Of a stretch of DNA of 64,000 nucleotides, positions 9,548 through 19,450 are shown piece after piece. Position numbers and translations under genes: made by a program. Under the pieces are notes generated by a model, which saw only the letters and a list, made by a program, of their open reading frames with translations, was not told the DNA's origin and ran no database searches. The stretch's first letter is position 1. Every line of letters begins with the position of its first letter. Source of the stretch: Methanomassiliicoccus sp. (lineage in GTDB: Archaea > Thermoplasmatota > Thermoplasmata > Methanomassiliicoccales > Methanomassiliicoccaceae); assembly GCA_016109435.1 (NCBI GenBank), contig JAEILR010000020.1:124001-188000 (forward strand), in the 5' to 3' direction.

Positions 9548-12496
9548 TCACTCGAACCTCAGGACCGAGGCCGGGGAGACCTTGCTCGCGCCCCGGGCGG
9601 CAGGATACACGCTCAGCAGGGTGGCCAGGAAGGCCAGGCCGCCGACCATCAGGATGGGCCACCAGGGGATGAGGAACCCGATGCCCATGTCCTGGAAGCC
9701 GGAGTCCCACAACTGGTAGCCGACGATGATGCCCAGCACCGAACCGATGAGTATTCCCAGCACGGACACGAACGCCGATTCTAAGGCGAAATTGACCACC
9801 ACCATCCTCTTGGTGTAGCCGATCGCCCGCATCATCCCTATCTCGATGCTCCTCTCCTTGATGGAACGGATGGTGATGATGCCCAGGCCGGTGATGCCGA
9901 TGATCAGGCCGAGCGCCAGGAAGGCCTTGATGAGGTTGAAGATGCCATCGATCTGACTGACCGCCTGCTGGGCCAGGGCCTTCATGGAGATGGTGAACAT
10001 CCCCACCTCCCAGAACTGGTTCTGGATCAGGGTGGCCTGCCGGTCGGCATCGACGTCCTCGGCGAGCTTGATGAGGAACAGGTTGGTGCCGTTGACGCCT
10101 AGGTCATCGTTCACGTACTCGTTGTTCATGAACATCCCGCTGAAGGAGCTCTGCTTGGTTATCCCGATGACCGTCACGGTGCTGTTCGCCCCGGTCGGGG
10201 TGGTCAGCTGGACGGTTTCCCCCACCATCGTCCCGGCGAACCCGCTGCTTCCCATAGACATCCCGAACTGACCGGTGCTCTCCCCGGCGGTGCCGTCCAG
10301 GATGACCAGGGAGGGATCGTCGCGGGCCGCCTCCCAGACCTCGTTCTCATCGCCGTACAGCGTGCGGTTCCAGTCCTTCAGGGGATAGTGTCCTTCGGTG
10401 TACAGCCGTTGATCGATGCCGATGACCCCGTAGGTGAACTGCACCTGCCCCACGATATTGGTGGTCGGATCGGTACGGTTCAGGGTGACCAGGGCGCCGC
10501 CATGGCTGAGCTGCACGACATTGGTCACGTTGCTCCCGTCGACCAGGCCGGAGGTGGAATTGATGGCGCCCCACATGTCCACCGGCGCGGCGGAGAAGGC
10601 CACGATGTCGAAGCCCCCGGAGGTCTCCTCCACAATATGGGGTATGCCCACGGCGAGCATCCCGGACATCATCGACAGGGTGGTGACGGTGAAAATGACC
10701 AGACCAAAGATGAAGATGCTGAGCGCGGTGCGCATCTTGGCCCTCAGAGGATAGGATATGGCGGTCATGACCACCGCCTTGTATCCTCCCCGGGGCCTCA
10801 GGACCTTGGTGAACAGGCGGACGATGCTGTCGGAATTGAACATGACCACGATCAGCAGGGAGATGACCATGAACACCCCGGAGATGACGAACATCTCGAT
10901 GTTCCCAGGATAGGGGAAGATCTCGAACCCCTTGGGCAGCCACACGAACAAGGTCGCCAGTCCCGCGATGTTCCAGGCGATTCGATCGCCGAGGAACCGC
11001 CGGAGCAGCAGCCCGGAGGACAGGGTCATCATCGACAGGCCGCTGGCCGCGGGGGCCAGGCTCTCGAGCGCGATGCCCAGGACCATGACCGCCGCTCCGG
11101 CGATGAGCAGGACGGCGCCCATGCGGAACAGCCCCTTGTCATCCCGTGACCGCAGGGGCTCGGGAATGTTCCGAACCGCGCGGACGATGTTCATCTTGGA
11201 TATCCGGTAAGTGACCGCGTAGATGGTGACCAGGGTCAGGGCGAAGCCGGCCAGGTAGGCGGCCGCCAGGGACAGCGGGGTGAAGGCAAAGTAATCGCTG
11301 ATGACCACGCCCCCGGCGGGTATGACCGCACCAGCGCCAAGGATGAGAGCGTACGCCAGGACCAATCCCACCGCGGTTCCGATGGCCGCGGCCACCGCCG
11401 CGTACAGCAAACCTTCATAGGTGAACAGTTTCCGCAGATGCTCGCGCTTCATCCCCACAGCCCGGGCGACCCCCATCTCACCCTTCCGTTCCTCACCCAG
11501 CATGGTGAAGATGTTGATGATCAGAGCAATGCCGGCGATGATGGAGAACGAGCCGAACACGAAGAACATGGAGGTGAACATGGAAATCGTAGAACGGCCC
11601 TCGGCGATGTTCTCGGCGCGGTCGCGGGTGATCTCTAGATCGAGACCTGCGAACGATGTCACCGTTGCGTTAAGAGCTTCCCGAGCGGGGACGATGTCGC
11701 CCCTGCCCTGTTCGTCCATGCCGACCACCAGGGTGCTGACCATCTCCTCGCCCATCAGCTGCTGGGCGGTGGCCAGGTCGATGAAGATGCTGGTGCCGGT
11801 GCGGGCCAGCACATCGTTCTTGACTATTACGGCGGTAAGGGTCGCGATGTGCTCGGGGTCCCTGGCCAGCAGGATCATGCTGCCATCGGTTATGTCCAGC
11901 AGGTCCGCCAGATTCTCGTTGATGTAGGCCTGCCCGGGCTCGGGCAGAACGTTCAGGGCGGCGCCGTCACGGGCATAGAAGCCGCCGAACGAGGAAATCG
12001 TGCCTTCGGTCATGCCCAGGACCTGGACCGACGGCTGGGTCAGTCCGGAGCTTAGTGATCTTATGCTGGAGGGCATTTCCAACACCCATTCCGCCCCGTC
12101 CACATGGTCGATGGCGAGAACGTCGTCGCGGACCGCGGAAACGTTGTTCAGGCTGTACAGCCCGGATCTGTTCTCCCCGGGACCCCCCACGGTGAAGTCG
12201 ATTTCGCCGAACGATGATGTCATCTCACCGACGATCATATTGTCCAGCGTGTCCCCTACCACCAGGGAGGCGGAGATGATGGCCGTTCCTACCATCAAAC
12301 CGCCGAGAACCAGCGCGGTGGTGGACGGACGGCGGAGCACGTTGCGGACGGACATCTTGAACAGCACCCGGTTGCCCAGGGCGTCCAACAGGATGAAGAG
12401 CACCACCAGCCCGATGACCGCGAGAATGGCCAGAGTGGTGGGAAGAAGCAGCAGGGAGGCGATAATGAGGACCACCGCTGCTGCCCCGATCAGCAC
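9548..12496 (-). CDS. ABC transporter permease, FtsX/MacB type (two FtsX domains)
   Basis: A 982-residue integral membrane permease. It opens with two hydrophobic segments (about 1-35), then a further helix beginning a MacB-like extracytoplasmic region (about 70-290) and an FtsX domain whose helix follows SIIAGIALIINIFTML. A second half repeats this plan: several helices (about 430-570), a second extracytoplasmic region (about 600-840), and a C-terminal FtsX domain with GLGIITIRSIKERSIEIG. Permeases of this class act by mechanotransmission or export rather than solute import. The GTG start at 12496 is 20 bases after the ATPase stop and no better start is visible. Confidence 0.92.
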   Translation of the reverse strand: MLIGAAAVVLIIASLLLLPTTLAILAVIGLVVLFILLDALGNRVLFKMSVRNVLRRPSTTALVLGGLMVGTAIISASLVVGDTLDNMIVGEMTSSFGEIDFTVGGPGENRSGLYSLNNVSAVRDDVLAIDHVDGAEWVLEMPSSIRSLSSGLTQPSVQVLGMTEGTISSFGGFYARDGAALNVLPEPGQAYINENLADLLDITDGSMILLARDPEHIATLTAVIVKNDVLARTGTSIFIDLATAQQLMGEEMVSTLVVGMDEQGRGDIVPAREALNATVTSFAGLDLEITRDRAENIAEGRSTISMFTSMFFVFGSFSIIAGIALIINIFTMLGEERKGEMGVARAVGMKREHLRKLFTYEGLLYAAVAAAIGTAVGLVLAYALILGAGAVIPAGGVVISDYFAFTPLSLAAAYLAGFALTLVTIYAVTYRISKMNIVRAVRNIPEPLRSRDDKGLFRMGAVLLIAGAAVMVLGIALESLAPAASGLSMMTLSSGLLLRRFLGDRIAWNIAGLATLFVWLPKGFEIFPYPGNIEMFVISGVFMVISLLIVVMFNSDSIVRLFTKVLRPRGGYKAVVMTAISYPLRAKMRTALSIFIFGLVIFTVTTLSMMSGMLAVGIPHIVEETSGGFDIVAFSAAPVDMWGAINSTSGLVDGSNVTNVVQLSHGGALVTLNRTDPTTNIVGQVQFTYGVIGIDQRLYTEGHYPLKDWNRTLYGDENEVWEAARDDPSLVILDGTAGESTGQFGMSMGSSGFAGTMVGETVQLTTPTGANSTVTVIGITKQSSFSGMFMNNEYVNDDLGVNGTNLFLIKLAEDVDADRQATLIQNQFWEVGMFTISMKALAQQAVSQIDGIFNLIKAFLALGLIIGITGLGIITIRSIKERSIEIGMMRAIGYTKRMVVVNFALESAFVSVLGILIGSVLGIIVGYQLWDSGFQDMGIGFLIPWWPILMVGGLAFLATLLSVYPAARGASKVSPASVLRFE

Positions 12497-12515
12497 CGTT
12501 CTTGCGTTCAGGCGA

Positions 12516-13235
12516 TCACCCCAGCTGCTTGATCTCTTCGGATATGTGCCTCACATTACCGTTGGTGGTGACCACGTTGCCGTCCCTCATGTGGATGATG
12601 CGGTCGCACTTGGCTCCCACCTCGGGATCGTGGGTGACGATGACGAACGTCTGCCCGTTCTCCTTGTTCAGCCTACGCATCAGGGCCACCACTTCGTCCG
12701 ATGTCTTAACGTCCAGGTCGCCGGTCGGCTCATCGGCCCACACGATGGCGGGGGTGTTTGATAGGGCCCGGGCGATGGTGACCCTCTGCCGCTCGCCCCC
12801 GGAAAGGGCATTGGGGCGCAAGGCGGCACGCTGGGACAAGCCCACCGCGTCGAGCAGTTCCAACGCCTTCTTCCTGGCTTCCTTGGGATCGGTCCCGGCG
12901 ATGAGCAGGGGAAGCTCCACGTTCTCGGTCGCGGTCAGCACCGGAAGGAGATTGTAGAACTGGAAGACGAAACCCATGCGCTTGGCCCGGAACCCCGTCT
13001 TTGCGTTGTCGTTCATGGAGGTCAGCTCCTGGTCCTCGATGTAGATCTTGCCGGAGGTGACCTCATCGATGCCTGATAGGCAGTTCAGCAGCGTGGTCTT
13101 GCCGCATCCCGAGGGACCCATCACCGCGACCATCTCCCCTTTCTCGATCTCCATGGAGATCCCTTTCAGGGCCTGTACGGTGATGTTCCCGGTAACGTAT
13201 GTTTTGGTGACTTCTTGGCATCGAATGATGGAGAT
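12516..13235 (-). CDS. ABC transporter ATP-binding protein, LolD/MacB type, with a non-standard start codon
   Basis: ATPase partner of the FtsX permease. Walker A is GPSGCGKTT, the signature is LSGGERQ, and Walker B is IVWADEP followed by TGDLD. Homology to the family begins before the first in-frame ATG (13154): the same frame upstream reads VTKTYVTGN and then VQALKGIS, the usual first strand with the A-loop tyrosine. Back to the stop at 13293 there is no ATG, GTG or TTG. AGGAGG at 13244-13249 lies eight bases before an ATC codon at 13235, used here as a provisional start (239 residues). Starting at 13154 would remove a structural strand. The frame itself is certain; the start is not. Confidence 0.85.
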
Positions 13236-13455: not shown

Positions 13456-14556
13456 TCACAACATCTCTTTGTCCGGCTTGCCCGACCCCAGTGCTCCCAG
13501 GGCCTCGGCCTCGGCCTTCTCTTTGGACATGGCATCCTCAAGGGCCTTGAGGTCGGCCCGGAGCTCGGCCTGGGAGGGTATGGGGCCGAGGATGTCCTCG
13601 GGCCTGCCCACTGCCTTCTCGATAGCGGCCTGGTCGCTGACATCTCTGGTGGGGGTCTGGCGGGAGACACCGAGGAACTCCGACATGCCCTCCAGGACCT
13701 TGGTGACCTCGAACGGCAGGATCCACTTGGTGGACTGGGAGGCTCCCAGGCTCTGCATCGTCTGCATGGACAGCACCGCCAGGGCCTTGGAGTCCAGGGG
13801 GCTTGCGCCGACCGACAGGATGCGCAGCTTCTGGGCCTCACCCTGGCTCTGCAGTATGATGGCCAGTCTTTCACCCTCGGCCTCCAGAACCTTGGACTGC
13901 CGGATACCTTCTGCCTGCAGGATTCGGGACCGCTTGGAACCTTCCGCGCTGAGGATGGCCGCGCGCTTCTCACCGTCGGCACGAAGGATGGCCGCCCTCC
14001 TCAGACGCTCGGAGGAGGTCTGCTCTTCCATGGCCTGCTTGACCTTGGGAGCGGGGTCGACCTCACGGATCTCCACGGCCTCGGCCCGGACGCCCCACTT
14101 GTCGGTGGCGTCATCGAGGATGTCCCTGAGCCTCAGGTTGATCTTCTCCCTGGACGACAGGATCTCGTCCAGTTCCATGTCGCCGATGATGGCCCTTAGA
14201 GTGGTCTGGGCGAGGTAGACCGTCGCCGCCCGGTAGTTGGTGACCTGGAAATAGGCCTTCTTGGGATCGATGACCTTGATGTAGATGATGGCGTCCACGT
14301 TGGTGGGCGAGTTGTCCTTGGTGATAACCTCCTGGCTGGGAACCTCCAGCACCTGCGTTCTAAGGTCCAGCTTGACGACCTCGCTTATCAACGGGACCAC
14401 GTAGTTGAACCCTGGATTCAAAGTACGCTTGTACGTGCCGAGCAGGATATAGATCGCCTGCTCGTACGGCTTGACGATGCGTATACCGGTGATCAGGATC
14501 AGTACCGCGGCGACGATCGCCAGGACCAATAATGCGACTGTGATAACATCGACCAT
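13456..14556 (-). CDS. Stomatin/slipin-like SPFH (Band 7) protein
   Basis: A 366-residue membrane scaffold protein. An N-terminal hydrophobic anchor (about 5-25) is followed by the SPFH domain (about 28-190) with IVKPYEQAIYILLGTYKRTLNPGF-like start and the motif VEIREVDPAPKV. Then comes a long coiled coil (about 190-260) of RAAIL and AEG repeats, typical of prokaryotic stomatins. The C-terminal part is Ala/Glu-rich. Such proteins oligomerise at membrane microdomains and are often encoded beside NfeD, as here: the NfeD stop is nine bases upstream. Confidence 0.93.
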   Translation of the reverse strand: MVDVITVALLVLAIVAAVLILITGIRIVKPYEQAIYILLGTYKRTLNPGFNYVVPLISEVVKLDLRTQVLEVPSQEVITKDNSPTNVDAIIYIKVIDPKKAYFQVTNYRAATVYLAQTTLRAIIGDMELDEILSSREKINLRLRDILDDATDKWGVRAEAVEIREVDPAPKVKQAMEEQTSSERLRRAAILRADGEKRAAILSAEGSKRSRILQAEGIRQSKVLEAEGERLAIILQSQGEAQKLRILSVGASPLDSKALAVLSMQTMQSLGASQSTKWILPFEVTKVLEGMSEFLGVSRQTPTRDVSDQAAIEKAVGRPEDILGPIPSQAELRADLKALEDAMSKEKAEAEALGALGSGKPDKEML

Positions 14557-14565
14557 ACTAACACC

Positions 14566-15045
14566 TTACTTGCACTCTGCTATCGGAGCGTCGCCGATCG
14601 GTTCCACCTTGACGTGGACGCCTTCACTGTTGATCACCTTGACCCGGTAACCGATCGGGATGGGGCGGGTGGAGGTGGCGCTCCATGTATCGTTCTCTAT
14701 CTTGACCTTGCCCCTGATGTTGTTCGGGCAGACGTCGGTGACCACCACGCCCTCCATGCCGATAAGCGACGTCGCCACCGTAGTGGTCGGGGGCATAGGC
14801 GGGGAGAGCTTCTGATAGAGCTTTACGGTCAGCATGAACACCGGGACCCCGATGGCAATGGCGATGATCGGGGACCACACGCTCAGAAGCAGATCGGGAG
14901 CGAGCATACCGATCGCTCCCAACACCAAAAGGACCGTTGCCGGGACTACCAGGAACGCTCCAGGCGTCACCGCCTCGGCCAACAGCATGATCACTCCTAT
15001 GATGATGAAGATCAGACCCAGGTCCGCACCGGTGATGACGACCAT
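14566..15045 (-). CDS. NfeD family membrane protein
   Basis: A 159-residue short NfeD (NfeD1b-like, without the protease domain). Three hydrophobic segments (about 5-75) carry the LLAEAVTPGAF motif, and a C-terminal OB-fold follows (about 95-155, with LIGMEGVVVTDVCPNNIRGKVKI). These proteins pair with stomatin or flotillin partners at the membrane. The ATG at 15045 places the first helix at the N terminus; a GTG at 15093 would add 16 residues and cannot be excluded. A TATA-like element at 15125-15135 suggests the NfeD-stomatin pair has its own promoter within the larger locus. Confidence 0.88.
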   Translation of the reverse strand: MVVITGADLGLIFIIIGVIMLLAEAVTPGAFLVVPATVLLVLGAIGMLAPDLLLSVWSPIIAIAIGVPVFMLTVKLYQKLSPPMPPTTTVATSLIGMEGVVVTDVCPNNIRGKVKIENDTWSATSTRPIPIGYRVKVINSEGVHVKVEPIGDAPIAECK

Positions 15046-15124
15046 GATAATATGATAACGGGTGACCACAAATAGGTATGCCTGGTGCGTCACCCCAGCG
15101 AGGCAAAAACCTCCGGTTGTTATC

Positions 15125-15135
15125 CTGTTTATACC
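15125..15135 (-). promoter_or_regulatory. TATA-like element upstream of NfeD-stomatin
   Basis: On the minus strand this reads GGTATAAACAG, in the gap between the zinc-ribbon gene ending at 15158 and the NfeD gene. It would start transcription near 15107, allowing either candidate NfeD start. Confidence 0.45.
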
Positions 15136-15157
15136 AGCCCTCGCCCATATGGGCAGC

Positions 15158-15745
15158 TCACAGGGCCAGTCCCGGACCGCCGGAGGTATTGATGAAGGGG
15201 AGATAGACGAGCATCGCCTCCTGGACCTTCAGTTCGTAATCCAGGTATTGCAGGGTCCCCGGCTTCTCCGCCTCCAGGGTGACGGCGACGAAATCGGCCA
15301 TCTCCACCGCCTCGTCATGGGTCATGGCAGTGGGCACCCTTTCAGCACCGTTGAAGTCCTTCCTCGCCCCGTAGCGGGGAGGCGAGGTCGTCAGGGAGAC
15401 CGCAAGCCTCCTGAAGGTCTGGGTGTCCATCTCCGAAGCGGGAACGAAGATGTACAGCATCCCCCCGTTGTCCCCTCCCCGGAAGGAGGCGGACAGCTTA
15501 TGGAGGAAGCCTCCCTCCACGTTGCGGGAGCGGATGTTGAAGTGACATTGCAGCCGCCAGAACGGGAGGTAATACCGCTGGCCGGCAGAGGGTGGGCTGT
15601 CGGCGATCTCATACGGCACCTTGTGGGGCCCGCTGGCATCGCGAAAGTGGATCGTGCCGCAGTTCTGGCACAGGAACATGGGGTCCTTCTGTTTTTGATA
15701 GATGATCTGCTCGCAGTTCGGACACTTGACCTGGACCACCTTCAC
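15158..15745 (-). CDS. Zinc-ribbon protein, third member of the YdjG/YdjH-like set
   Basis: A 195-residue protein with an N-terminal zinc ribbon (CPNCEQ and CQNCGT, about residues 8-32). The body contains RYYLPFWRLQCHF (about 58-70). This Tyr-x-Pro-Phe-Trp element also occurs in the two genes upstream, which suggests common descent. It has no membrane segment, unlike its two relatives. The start overlaps the stop of the 333-residue gene by four bases, so translation is coupled. Function is unknown; it is probably a soluble subunit of the same membrane complex. Confidence 0.82.
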   Translation of the reverse strand: MKVVQVKCPNCEQIIYQKQKDPMFLCQNCGTIHFRDASGPHKVPYEIADSPPSAGQRYYLPFWRLQCHFNIRSRNVEGGFLHKLSASFRGGDNGGMLYIFVPASEMDTQTFRRLAVSLTTSPPRYGARKDFNGAERVPTAMTHDEAVEMADFVAVTLEAEKPGTLQYLDYELKVQEAMLVYLPFINTSGGPGLAL

Positions 15746-16743
15746 CGGTACGCACCTCCGATCATCTTTCCTATCTGACCAACCTGATTGAGGTCCAGTT
15801 TCTTCTGCCGGTCGGCGAAATCACCCTCGATGATCTCCGAACCGTGGCGGAAGAAGTAATAGGTGGCGGCAAGGAGGATGACCCCGAAGATCACTCCGGC
15901 GATGCCCACCTCCGACTCCGCGGCGATCGTGACCAGCACCCCGCCGGCCGCGACCAGCCCTCCGATGGAGGTACCGGCGGTGACCGCCAGGCTCTGGAAG
16001 AGCGGATCTCCCGGGGCGCGGCCTGACAGCACCTGTCCAGTGACCCCGTCGACGGTCAGAATGTACATGCGGTCATGATAGTTATAGCGGACCACCCACA
16101 CCGGGTAGTAGATAATCGAGGTCTTCTTGATCAGGGTGTGGAGGTTCTCGAACGTGACATGGGGGACATGCGCCGCGCTCCTCCCCCGGGAGATGGCGTC
16201 GTCCCGGGCGTGGGCGTTGGCGTCGTCCCGGCTGGTCGTCGACTCGAAGGTGGGGATCATGTCCAGGTCCTCGAAGGACGACTCTCCGGAGAAGTTGCGG
16301 AGCGACCTCAGCCCAAGGTCGCCGGGGTCACAAGCGATCTCCGAATATGAGAGGTCCATCAGCACCATCTCCTCTTTGTATATCCTCTCGTTGGTGGTGT
16401 GGCCCTTCGAATCGGAACGCGTCCGCTCCTCGTACCCGCAGACCCACCCGGCCACCCTGGTGCCGATGCTCCAGAAAGGAAGGTAAATCGGATATACCTC
16501 GGTGACCGCTCCGGTCTTGCGCAGGTCCCGGGCCTTGAGGCCCTTTCTCCACCATGCCTGGGCGGCGTTGATGGCCGTACTCTCGCTCATCTTGTTCTTG
16601 AAGGCGATGGTGAGAACGCCCTTGTCGCCTTCCACGTACAGCGTGGAGCCGCAATAGGTGCAGTTTACCACGCTCTCTCCCTCGACTATGGTGATGGCCC
16701 CACCGCAGGACGGGCAGTTGAGCCCGACGGTTATGTCGCTCAT
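15742..16743 (-). CDS. Membrane-anchored zinc-ribbon protein (YdjG/YdjH-like)
   Basis: A 333-residue protein. A TFIIB-type zinc ribbon opens it (CPSCGG and CTYCGS, about residues 10-33). A body with YPIYLPFWSIG (about 88-98) and YYPVWVVRYNYHD (about 220-232) follows, then two transmembrane helices (about 255-300) and a short charged tail. The same plan is found in the next gene upstream and in bacterial YdjG/YdjH, which recruit PspA to the membrane in Bacillus. One base separates it from the upstream gene and four bases overlap the downstream one. Confidence 0.82.
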   Translation of the reverse strand: MSDITVGLNCPSCGGAITIVEGESVVNCTYCGSTLYVEGDKGVLTIAFKNKMSESTAINAAQAWWRKGLKARDLRKTGAVTEVYPIYLPFWSIGTRVAGWVCGYEERTRSDSKGHTTNERIYKEEMVLMDLSYSEIACDPGDLGLRSLRNFSGESSFEDLDMIPTFESTTSRDDANAHARDDAISRGRSAAHVPHVTFENLHTLIKKTSIIYYPVWVVRYNYHDRMYILTVDGVTGQVLSGRAPGDPLFQSLAVTAGTSIGGLVAAGGVLVTIAAESEVGIAGVIFGVILLAATYYFFRHGSEIIEGDFADRQKKLDLNQVGQIGKMIGGAYR

Positions 16744-16744
16744 A

Positions 16745-17488
16745 TCACATCCTCCTGGCCACGGTAAGGGAGAGGAAGAACACTGCGATCACCGTAACGG
16801 CCATGAGGATAAGGGCGGGGACGAGGTACACTGTTGCCAGGAAGCCTAGGGCCAGGAAGGCGATGAACCCCGCCACGGCCACCAGGATGTAGGCGGCGGA
16901 GCTCCGCGTGGGGAAGATGGAAGCGAACACCTCCGATGAGGAGGCGTCCACCACCACCTGGTATTGCGTTCCGTTGAAGGTGTACTCGATCGTCCATATG
17001 GGGAAGTACACCAGGGCCTGTTCCTTTCCCGTGCCGGGCAGCTTGTCGAGATAGTGCAGCATCTCGATGTCCGGCTTGATCAGCTCCGCGCCGTTGGTAT
17101 CGAACGACGCGTCGAACATCTTGAGGTCACCGCCCGGCACCTTGAGACTGTGCAGCCCCGGCAGGATGGTGGAGCCTGCCGGTTCCACTATGACTTCCTC
17201 CTTCCCGTTGATGTTGCGACGGAAGAGGTATACCGGGAAGTACTTCTTCGTGACCGAGGTGATGTTTGCAAGGCGGTCGAGGTCCTTGGCCTTGGTGGAC
17301 CCCCCGGCCCAGCGCCGGAACGTGCCGATGGCATCGTTCTGGTTGAGCTTGAAGGGTATGGCATAGTAGAACCCCGCGCCGCTCCGGTCGAAGAAGATCA
17401 GGGAACCGCAGTAGCTGCACTTGGCGAACTTGTTGCCGGTGTCCAGCACTATCGGCGCCGCACATTTGGGACAGTTGACCTGGGCCAT
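16745..17488 (-). CDS. Membrane-anchored zinc-ribbon protein (YdjG/YdjH-like)
   Basis: A 247-residue protein. The N-terminal zinc ribbon uses CPKCAA and CSYCGS (about residues 6-28). The body carries KKYFPVYLFRRN (about 82-92) and ALVYFPIWTIEYTFNG (about 157-172), the aromatic-Pro-aromatic elements shared with its neighbours. Two hydrophobic helices end the protein (about 193-243). It starts nine bases after the SPFH-zinc-ribbon gene. Inferred role: membrane anchor or adaptor for the SPFH and coiled-coil partners. Confidence 0.82.
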   Translation of the reverse strand: MAQVNCPKCAAPIVLDTGNKFAKCSYCGSLIFFDRSGAGFYYAIPFKLNQNDAIGTFRRWAGGSTKAKDLDRLANITSVTKKYFPVYLFRRNINGKEEVIVEPAGSTILPGLHSLKVPGGDLKMFDASFDTNGAELIKPDIEMLHYLDKLPGTGKEQALVYFPIWTIEYTFNGTQYQVVVDASSSEVFASIFPTRSSAAYILVAVAGFIAFLALGFLATVYLVPALILMAVTVIAVFFLSLTVARRM

Positions 17489-17497
17489 TCGGTGACC

Positions 17498-18661
17498 TCA
17501 CTGGATCGGCTTGCCGCATTCGGGGCAGAACTTTGTACCCGCGGGGACCTCCGCACCGCAGTTGGCGCACTTCTTGGACCCCATGGGATTCCCGCATTCA
17601 GGGCAGAACTTAGAGCCTCCCGGAACGTTGGAACCGCATTTGGGGCACTTCTTGTCTTCCTCGAACTTGGTGCCGCACTCCGAGCAGAACTTGTTCCCCG
17701 GCGGGTTCATGGCTCCGCACTTGGGGCACTTCAGGGTGTTGCCGAAGGCCGGCGCGGCCCCGCCCTGCTGCGGTCCCGAGGCCGGCTGCTGCCTCATCTG
17801 GTCCACCATGGTGTAGCCCATCCCGATGCCGGCTCCGACCCCCACGCCCACTCCGGCGGCCCCGCCGGAGGGGTTCTGGGCCGCCTCGCGCATGGCCTGC
17901 CCGGTCTGATAGCCCATGTAGTTCGTTCCGAGCACCTGCATCGATGCCCGGGTGTCCACCGCCTTCTGGACCTCCTCGGGGAGGGATATGTACAGTCCGG
18001 AGATCTTGTCGACCAGGATGCCGTACAGGTCGAAGTGGTCGGCCGCCTTGTCCAGCACGCCCTGCTCGATGTTCATCAGGCTGGAGGCCAGGTCGGCCAC
18101 GCCCATGCCCTGGTTCTTCATCTCCCCGACGACGCTGTAGATGAGGATCACCATCTGCTCCTTGATCCTCTCCTCGATCTCGGCGGAGGTTGCGAGGTCC
18201 AGGGTGCCGACGAACTGGTTGACGAAGTTCTCCGGCTGTCCGACCTTGTATCGGAACTCCCCGAACACCCTCAGGTTGACGACCCCGAAGTCCTTGTCCC
18301 GGAACTGGTAGGGTTGCTTGGAACCGAACTTACCGTCGAACGCGCGCTTCTGGAGGTAGATGACCTCGGCCTGCTGCACCACGCCGGAGAGCGCCTTCAC
18401 TATGGTCCCGACGATGGGAGCGTTGATGCTGGTGAGAGCATAGCGGTCAGGGCGATCGAAATAGGTGAGGGCCTTGCCGTCACGGTAGAAGACCGCGATC
18501 TCATCCTCTCTCACCACTATGTTGTCGTTGAACCTGATGAGACGCTTCACGCGGTACATGATGTTGTTCCGCTTCTCCGCGTCGTCCCAGCTGAAGGTGG
18601 CCGAGCCGATCAGGCTATCCTTCAGCGCCCCGCCCCCGCTGGGGTCCGTTACCTTTGCCAT
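17498..18661 (-). CDS. SPFH-domain protein with three C-terminal zinc-ribbon modules (YdjI-like)
   Basis: A 387-residue protein of the SPFH group sometimes labelled virion core protein-like and represented by Bacillus YdjI. The SPFH region covers about residues 15-230, with VVREDEIAVFYRDGKAL and the YIQK-like YLQKRAFDGKFG. A Gly/Ala-rich linker follows (about 255-305). Three zinc-ribbon modules end it (residues 308-387), each with CxxCG, a Pro-Gly turn, and FCxECG. There is no obvious transmembrane helix. Two bases separate it from the coiled-coil gene upstream. SPFH plus repeated zinc ribbons suggests a scaffold that assembles under the membrane. Confidence 0.87.
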   Translation of the reverse strand: MAKVTDPSGGGALKDSLIGSATFSWDDAEKRNNIMYRVKRLIRFNDNIVVREDEIAVFYRDGKALTYFDRPDRYALTSINAPIVGTIVKALSGVVQQAEVIYLQKRAFDGKFGSKQPYQFRDKDFGVVNLRVFGEFRYKVGQPENFVNQFVGTLDLATSAEIEERIKEQMVILIYSVVGEMKNQGMGVADLASSLMNIEQGVLDKAADHFDLYGILVDKISGLYISLPEEVQKAVDTRASMQVLGTNYMGYQTGQAMREAAQNPSGGAAGVGVGVGAGIGMGYTMVDQMRQQPASGPQQGGAAPAFGNTLKCPKCGAMNPPGNKFCSECGTKFEEDKKCPKCGSNVPGGSKFCPECGNPMGSKKCANCGAEVPAGTKFCPECGKPIQ

Positions 18662-18663
18662 GT

Positions 18664-19194
18664 TTAGACCTCCGTGCCCTGTATAACATTGATGCGTCGC
18701 TTGAACTGCTCCTCGAAGTTGTCTATCAGTAGCCTCAGCTGGTCGATCTGGTCCTGGGCCGCCAGGCCTTCGTTGGCGGTGAGGGACACCCTCATCTGTT
18801 CGATGGCCTGGGCCATGGAAGCCAGACCGTCGATCATCGAGGCATCGTACTCATAGAGCCGGGAGATCTCGTCCTGCTTGAACTGGATGTCCGCGGAAAT
18901 ACCAGAATAGCCGGGCGAGGAGTGGGATACCAGACCCTCCACTTTCTTGTACTTGCTGATAACTCCTCCCATGAGCTCCAGCTCCGGGGAGTTGTAGGAA
19001 TTGGTCACCAGGCGGCGGGACCGTTCGATCTGCTTGCGCTGAAGTGACAGCTTCTTGGCGAGCTGGTCCCTCAGCATCCGATCGGCGTCCCTGAGGTCCT
19101 CCTTCTGACGGTAACCCCGGAAGCCTGGCACGAACATCTGGATCTTTTTCAGGATACCCTGATCTTCCTTGACCCGTTCCCTAATGTCTGGCAT
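18664..19194 (-). CDS. Coiled-coil protein, first gene of the SPFH/zinc-ribbon operon
   Basis: A 176-residue, mostly helical protein. It has the motif PGFRGYRQKEDLRDADRML (about 24-42), long heptad-like helices (about 40-70), GYSGISADI and ISRLYEYDAS (about 95-118), and a further helix to the end. The pattern of PG-x-GY-x-x-KE, then LYEYDAS, resembles unnamed bacterial proteins encoded beside YdjI-like SPFH genes, where PspA-type coiled coils also occur. That likeness is from memory and needs a profile search. It starts after a good Shine-Dalgarno (AAGGGGG) and a TATA box, so it leads the operon. Confidence 0.75.
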   Translation of the reverse strand: MPDIRERVKEDQGILKKIQMFVPGFRGYRQKEDLRDADRMLRDQLAKKLSLQRKQIERSRRLVTNSYNSPELELMGGVISKYKKVEGLVSHSSPGYSGISADIQFKQDEISRLYEYDASMIDGLASMAQAIEQMRVSLTANEGLAAQDQIDQLRLLIDNFEEQFKRRINVIQGTEV

Positions 19195-19200
19195 CTTGAA

Positions 19201-19245
19201 CCCCCTTTTTGACGAAAAACAACCCTTCAGGGTATAATAGTATCG
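19201..19245 (-). promoter_or_regulatory. Promoter and palindrome of the SPFH/zinc-ribbon operon
   Basis: On the minus strand CTATTATACC (19232-19241) is a TATA box that would start transcription near 19210. The palindrome ACCCT-TC-AGGGT (19222-19233) lies just downstream and overlaps the end of the TATA box, where a repressor could act. A Shine-Dalgarno (AAAGGGGG) sits at 19201-19208. Confidence 0.5.
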
Positions 19246-19450
19246 TAACGGGCATCATTATCGATGCGTCATTATTCATGTCCCCCGCCAGGCCCCTGGG
19301 GGCCCCAGCCGACCCCGGTCCAGGACATGACGGGATTAGGGCCGAGGCGGGACCGGAAGCGAGCATGGTATTGAATCTCTGAGATTTCTAGCAATCTTAT
19401 TATAGGTGAAAAATACGGTGATGCCTCAACCCGGTGAAGGCAGGACCAAC

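Follow-up and report, generated by a model that had tools for sequence, protein, structure and literature searches.

A conserved archaeal operon of helical, SPFH and zinc-ribbon proteins as a possible PspA-independent relative of the Bacillus YdjGHI platform

Which proteins might watch over the membrane of an archaeon that has no PspA? More than half of archaeal genomes carry no Psp domain of any kind (PMC9239133). In Bacillus, YdjI and PspA are brought to the membrane by YdjG and YdjH, and YdjI, YdjG and YdjH are all required for PspA membrane foci (PMC8581546). Here, we examined a run of seven minus-strand genes at positions 19194-13456 of a 64,000-nucleotide stretch (the window) of contig JAEILR010000020.1, from a 2.2 Mb genome of Methanomassiliicoccus sp. 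An open reading frame check gave, in this order, a helical protein (CC), an SPFH protein, the zinc-ribbon proteins ZnM1, ZnM2 and ZnS, an NfeD protein and a stomatin. We estimate at roughly one half the probability that this operon is a PspA-independent archaeal variant of a YdjGHI-type membrane-surveillance platform. The genes and their order are well supported; how they work we infer from homology and from the neighbouring genes.

An initial annotation of this DNA had taken the locus for a likely archaeal form of the Bacillus ydj system (PMC11237479), and the SPFH and ZnM proteins are the parts for which that idea stands. The SPFH protein matches PF13421 at 6.9e-32, together with DZR and Zn_Ribbon_1 (Pfam), has no transmembrane (TM) segment and belongs to the YdjI-type family, likewise matched in B. 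subtilis; its six CxxC motifs form three double-CxxC ribbons, the three modules that had been described. ZnM1 and ZnM2 each begin with a CxxC-CxxC ribbon, one per protein in the window and two in the ZnM-type proteins of other lineages. As had been suggested, they are related to YdjG, a comparison made by proxy with bacterial double-ribbon TM proteins encoded beside a PF13421 SPFH gene, not with B. subtilis YdjG itself. The proxies, encoded directly downstream of the SPFH gene in Vibrio, Paracoccus, Comamonas, Tsukamurella and Enterococcus, have the double-ribbon TM architecture given for YdjG (PMC11237479). With all ribbons removed, the ZnM1/ZnM2 profile scored 30-54 bits against them, the best of 1000 shuffled decoys reaching 9.1 bits, and hhalign gave 94-99%. 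These sequence comparisons support homology beyond the ribbon to the YdjG-type proteins of bacterial SPFH loci, by proxy. Hydropathy assigned two TM segments to ZnM1 and one to ZnM2, for which the AlphaFold model has a two-helix hairpin (residues 247-275 and 279-300); ZnM1 and ZnM2 are membrane-anchored relatives of YdjG-type proteins. The three ribbon proteins had also been regarded as paralogues, which fits ZnM1 and ZnM2 (hhalign 97.7% with the ribbon removed) and does not fit ZnS, whose likeness outside the ribbon was 62% to ZnM2 over 42 columns, 11% to ZnM1 and 3.9% to the bacterial YdjG-like proteins. With no convincing likeness beyond the ribbon, ZnS was rejected as a full paralogue of the other two.

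The correspondence with Bacillus fails for TPM and PspA. YdjG is the sole membrane protein with zinc ribbons there, YdjH carrying a TPM domain (PMC11237479), so the premise of two such proteins in Bacillus was mistaken; nor is the archaeal set complete, as had been claimed, since open reading frames and Pfam showed that the window operon lacks TPM. The genome does have a LemA-TPM pair on another contig, and in a sister family (f3) the CC-SPFH-ZnM operon ends in LemA-TPM, with the terminal TPM confirmed by Pfam. Compared with pspA-ydjG-ydjH-ydjI of B. subtilis, the archaeal operon shares a PF13421 SPFH protein without TM segment, proteins that combine zinc ribbon, YdjG-like domain and TM segments, a helical protein in first place and, in the sister family, TPM within the operon. 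It differs in having CC for PspA, a duplicated single-ribbon ZnM with an added ZnS, no TPM in the window and the SPFH gene second, whereas that of Bacillus is last. The Enterococcus operon, running SPFH, YdjG-like double-ribbon TM protein and TPM, equals YdjI-YdjG-YdjH without PspA; this E. gallinarum plasmid locus (L222) resembles ours in its adjacent homologous SPFH and ZnM-type genes, with TPM third, but it has two ribbons in one protein and neither CC nor PspA. Elsewhere in bacteria, TelA-type 'toxic anion resistance' and DUF2927 genes stand directly upstream of SPFH/YdjG-like genes on a Paracoccus plasmid (L225), and TIR-domain and TRAFs-binding-domain genes lie on the opposite strand beside the pair on a Vibrio coralliilyticus plasmid (L220).

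The place held by PspA in Bacillus had been thought to be filled here by a different helical protein, and our data on CC agree. The PspA_IM30 profile (PF04012) had no match in CC, no PspA was found among its PDB profile matches, and PF04012 is absent from the window genome, exceeding the cut-off in 2 of 61 relatives. The confident AlphaFold model of CC (predicted local distance difference test 85.5; predicted template-modelling score 0.83) is a bundle of five short helices (18, 34, 21, 33 and 30 residues), without the long hairpin of helices 1 and 2 of ESCRT-III-like proteins. A Foldseek comparison of this model with the PDB returned no significant match; none of PspA, Vipp1 and ESCRT-III was among the best 50 matches listed, and IncA and designed repeats gave the highest template-modelling scores, about 0.5. 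Sequence profiles, genome content and fold all speak against homology of CC to PspA or ESCRT-III, and that reading was rejected. CC does match NF047596, the LIMLP_15305 family of Leptospira, along nearly its whole length (E = 5.2e-13, 49.2 bits), as did all 14 CC proteins of our first alignment (best 2e-20, in a relative), but it lies far below the curated equivalog cut-off of 210 bits: it is a distant homologue and not an equivalog. Conservation is highest at residues 4-30, which include LKKIQxxVPGFRGYR and may serve as a docking surface. In one family (f7, L106-L108) CC bears an extra N-terminal zinc ribbon, and no CC genes were found in viral contigs or plasmids. Two genomes of the same genus have a weak PspA_IM30 gene beside a separate TPM-domain protein of 770-810 amino acids (L060:6583-9660 and L061:6183-9339), a distinct PspA-TPM locus that not all genus members have.

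Conservation of the gene order in other genomes, anticipated in the initial annotation, was borne out. The order CC-SPFH-ZnM1-ZnM2-ZnS occurs in 14 of 20 order-level genomes, from three families (f1, f3 and f6). CC genes were found in 83 of 293 Thermoplasmatota genomes. Of the 84 CC genes in this phylum, 74 are immediately followed, on the same strand, by a PF13421 SPFH gene; most of the remainder are weak CC matches or lie at contig ends. Among 247 sampled Halobacteriota genomes we counted 16 strong CC and 16 strong PF13421 genes, all paired (16/16); Methanoperedens BLZ2 and ANME-2 carry the full five-gene operon. Chance falls far short of explaining an order that many genera and two phyla share. 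Other arrangements exist: ZnM1-ZnM2-ZnS precede CC-SPFH in Methanocorpusculum and Methanomicrobium mobile, usually with a gene for a four-TM (4-TM) protein between, and family f2 has a zinc-ribbon (ZnR) protein of about 512 amino acids, a 4-TM protein, CC and SPFH. In many lineages whose ZnR protein has no TM segments a small 4-TM protein precedes CC; L109 and Methanocorpusculum have both the 4-TM gene and ZnR TM segments. A 512-530-amino-acid zinc-ribbon protein and a 4-TM protein are encoded upstream of CC-SPFH in L052, L055, L058 and L121, the last three of which also have a CxxC protein of about 310-330 amino acids there. CC and SPFH-ZnR form a conserved adjacent pair, with TPM or NfeD-stomatin modules added according to lineage.

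By analogy with Bacillus YdjG and YdjH, we propose that ZnM1 and ZnM2 would recruit SPFH-ZnR, since it has no TM segment of its own, to the cytosolic face of the membrane; in other lineages this step would probably fall to the small 4-TM protein whose gene immediately precedes CC. SPFH would then oligomerise at the membrane and, with ZnM, recruit CC, which may dock through its invariant N-terminal PGFRGYR motif at residues 22-30 and act as a helical effector or adaptor in place of Bacillus PspA. For the zinc ribbons, the simplest role is that of modules for docking proteins. Under stress, the system would probably stabilise the ether-lipid membrane and its proteins or serve their quality control.

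Several observations weigh against this proposal. Methanoperedens has separate PspA genes in addition to the operon, and because it has both, CC is not simply a PspA replacement. Since CC has no sequence or fold relation to PspA or ESCRT-III, its proposed role as an effector in the PspA slot comes from gene position only. Family f9 (L103-L105) has neither the 4-TM gene nor a clear TM hairpin, and so no obvious membrane anchor, and the ZnM2 fold gave no significant match, at low probabilities, to solved structures.

All seven open reading frames lie on the minus strand exactly where they had been annotated (Table 1). The first five are tightly packed, as described, with spacers of 2, 9 and 1 base pairs (bp) and then a 4-bp overlap, and 112 bp separate ZnS from the likely NfeD ATG. 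About 30-40 bp upstream of NfeD, several genus members have GGCATACC followed by a T/A-rich stretch, a candidate from sequence that makes a separate second promoter plausible. Directly downstream of stomatin, at 9548-13154, the window encodes an ABC ATPase and a 982-amino-acid FtsX/MacB-like permease, both kept in several genomes of the same family (L039, L042, L045, L196 and L199). PADLOC gave no convincing match to an anti-phage system.

Table 1. Positions of the operon genes and of the candidate promoter in the window
Feature	Position	Strand	Remarks
Candidate promoter	19195..19260	-	TACGATACTATTATA about 50 bp upstream of CC start; alike in genus members
CC, 176-amino-acid helical-bundle protein	18664..19194	-	First gene; LKKIQxxVPGFRGYR motif and GYSG loop conserved
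SPFH/Band_7_1 (YdjI-type)	17498..18661	-	Three C-terminal zinc-ribbon pairs; no TM segment
ZnM1	16745..17488	-	N-terminal zinc ribbon, YdjG-like domain, C-terminal TM segments
ZnM2	15742..16743	-	N-terminal zinc ribbon, YdjG-like domain (weak PepSY/YPEB match), TM hairpin
ZnS, soluble zinc-ribbon protein	15158..15745	-	Kinship to ZnM1/2 mainly in ribbon
NfeD	14566..15093	-	PF01957 9.2e-14; likely start ATG at 15045, judged by orthologue lengths
Stomatin/HflK-like SPFH	13456..14556	-	N-terminal TM; PF01145 2.3e-41

The NfeD-stomatin pair had been described as an attached second SPFH/NfeD module, and it does adjoin the operon here, but it is lineage-specific and outside the core. In several genomes of the Methanomassiliicoccus group and in family f6 it comes after the operon, in L131 before 4TM-CC-SPFH, and is thus a recurrent but optional module. 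As in NfeD/stomatin operons, the NfeD and SPFH genes (13456-15093) are 9 bp apart; the difference is that the pair is appended to a CC-SPFH-ZnM operon. Such attachments could point to a different function, a chaperone-like platform for membrane-protein assembly and turnover. Like HflK/HflC and stomatin/NfeD, the SPFH ring would then surround membrane proteins or gate them; ZnM, TPM and LemA would assist assembly, CC would form a lid or an adaptor, and stress or lipid repair would not be the primary task. Besides the NfeD-stomatin genes attached in Methanomassiliicoccus and the NfeD-STOM-4TM-CC-SPFH order of L131, the LemA-TPM pair of the sister family fits this explanation, as does the HflK-like second SPFH protein (1.7e-26 to the HflK model, under the cut-off), and a chaperone-like role has been proposed for band-7 proteins and their TPM partners (PMC11237479). 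The conserved operon nevertheless contains no protease or AAA+ gene, and NfeD-stomatin and TPM are attached in some lineages only; we consider a chaperone-like platform unlikely, about half as probable as the surveillance platform.

Still less probable is a scaffold for cell division, vesicles or membrane domains unconnected with stress, comparable to the SPFH-containing Meth_adaptin ESCRT loci of archaea. In those loci, as here, one SPFH protein combines a coiled coil and a zinc ribbon, and a parallel with YdjI-PspA has been noted for them (PMC11188069). They also contain Vps4 and ESCRT-III, whereas in the loci that we read we recognised no Vps4, ESCRT-III or adaptin-like protein as a recurrent neighbour, by reading and not by a profile search for these families; CC, moreover, matches no ESCRT-III structure. 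Least credible is a metal or redox sensor in which the many ribbons act as a metal or thiol switch joining the scaffold, an unsupported speculation. In its favour, SPFH has as many as six CxxC pairs, and ZnM1, ZnM2 and ZnS have a ribbon each, conserved across phyla. Against it, the families that the ribbons match (DZR, Zn_Ribbon_1) are generic ones for structure or docking, ribbon number is not constant (certain SPFH proteins of Methanocorpusculum and Methanomicrobium have four CxxC), and redox or metal genes do not recur nearby.

Beyond the surveillance platform of this one locus, we tentatively suggest, at somewhat less than even odds, that SPFH-zinc-ribbon platforms have in CC a helical partner that is not of the ESCRT-III kind and had not been recognised before, and that many Thermoplasmatota and several Halobacteriota use CC-SPFH-ZnM as their main membrane-surveillance system, independent of PspA and fitted with either TPM/LemA or NfeD/stomatin as exchangeable modules. 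We found no published description of this operon in a literature search that lay outside most subscription journals. An operon conserved in two phyla is a concrete candidate for membrane protection in archaea without PspA. The idea is testable, as the named isolates Methanocorpusculum parvum and Methanomicrobium mobile carry the operon. The sharing of SPFH and YdjG-type parts with a different helical partner points to the SPFH-ZnR-YdjG platform as the conserved core, PspA then perhaps being one of several interchangeable effectors; the operon further suggests that many archaea possess their own version of a membrane-surveillance machine.

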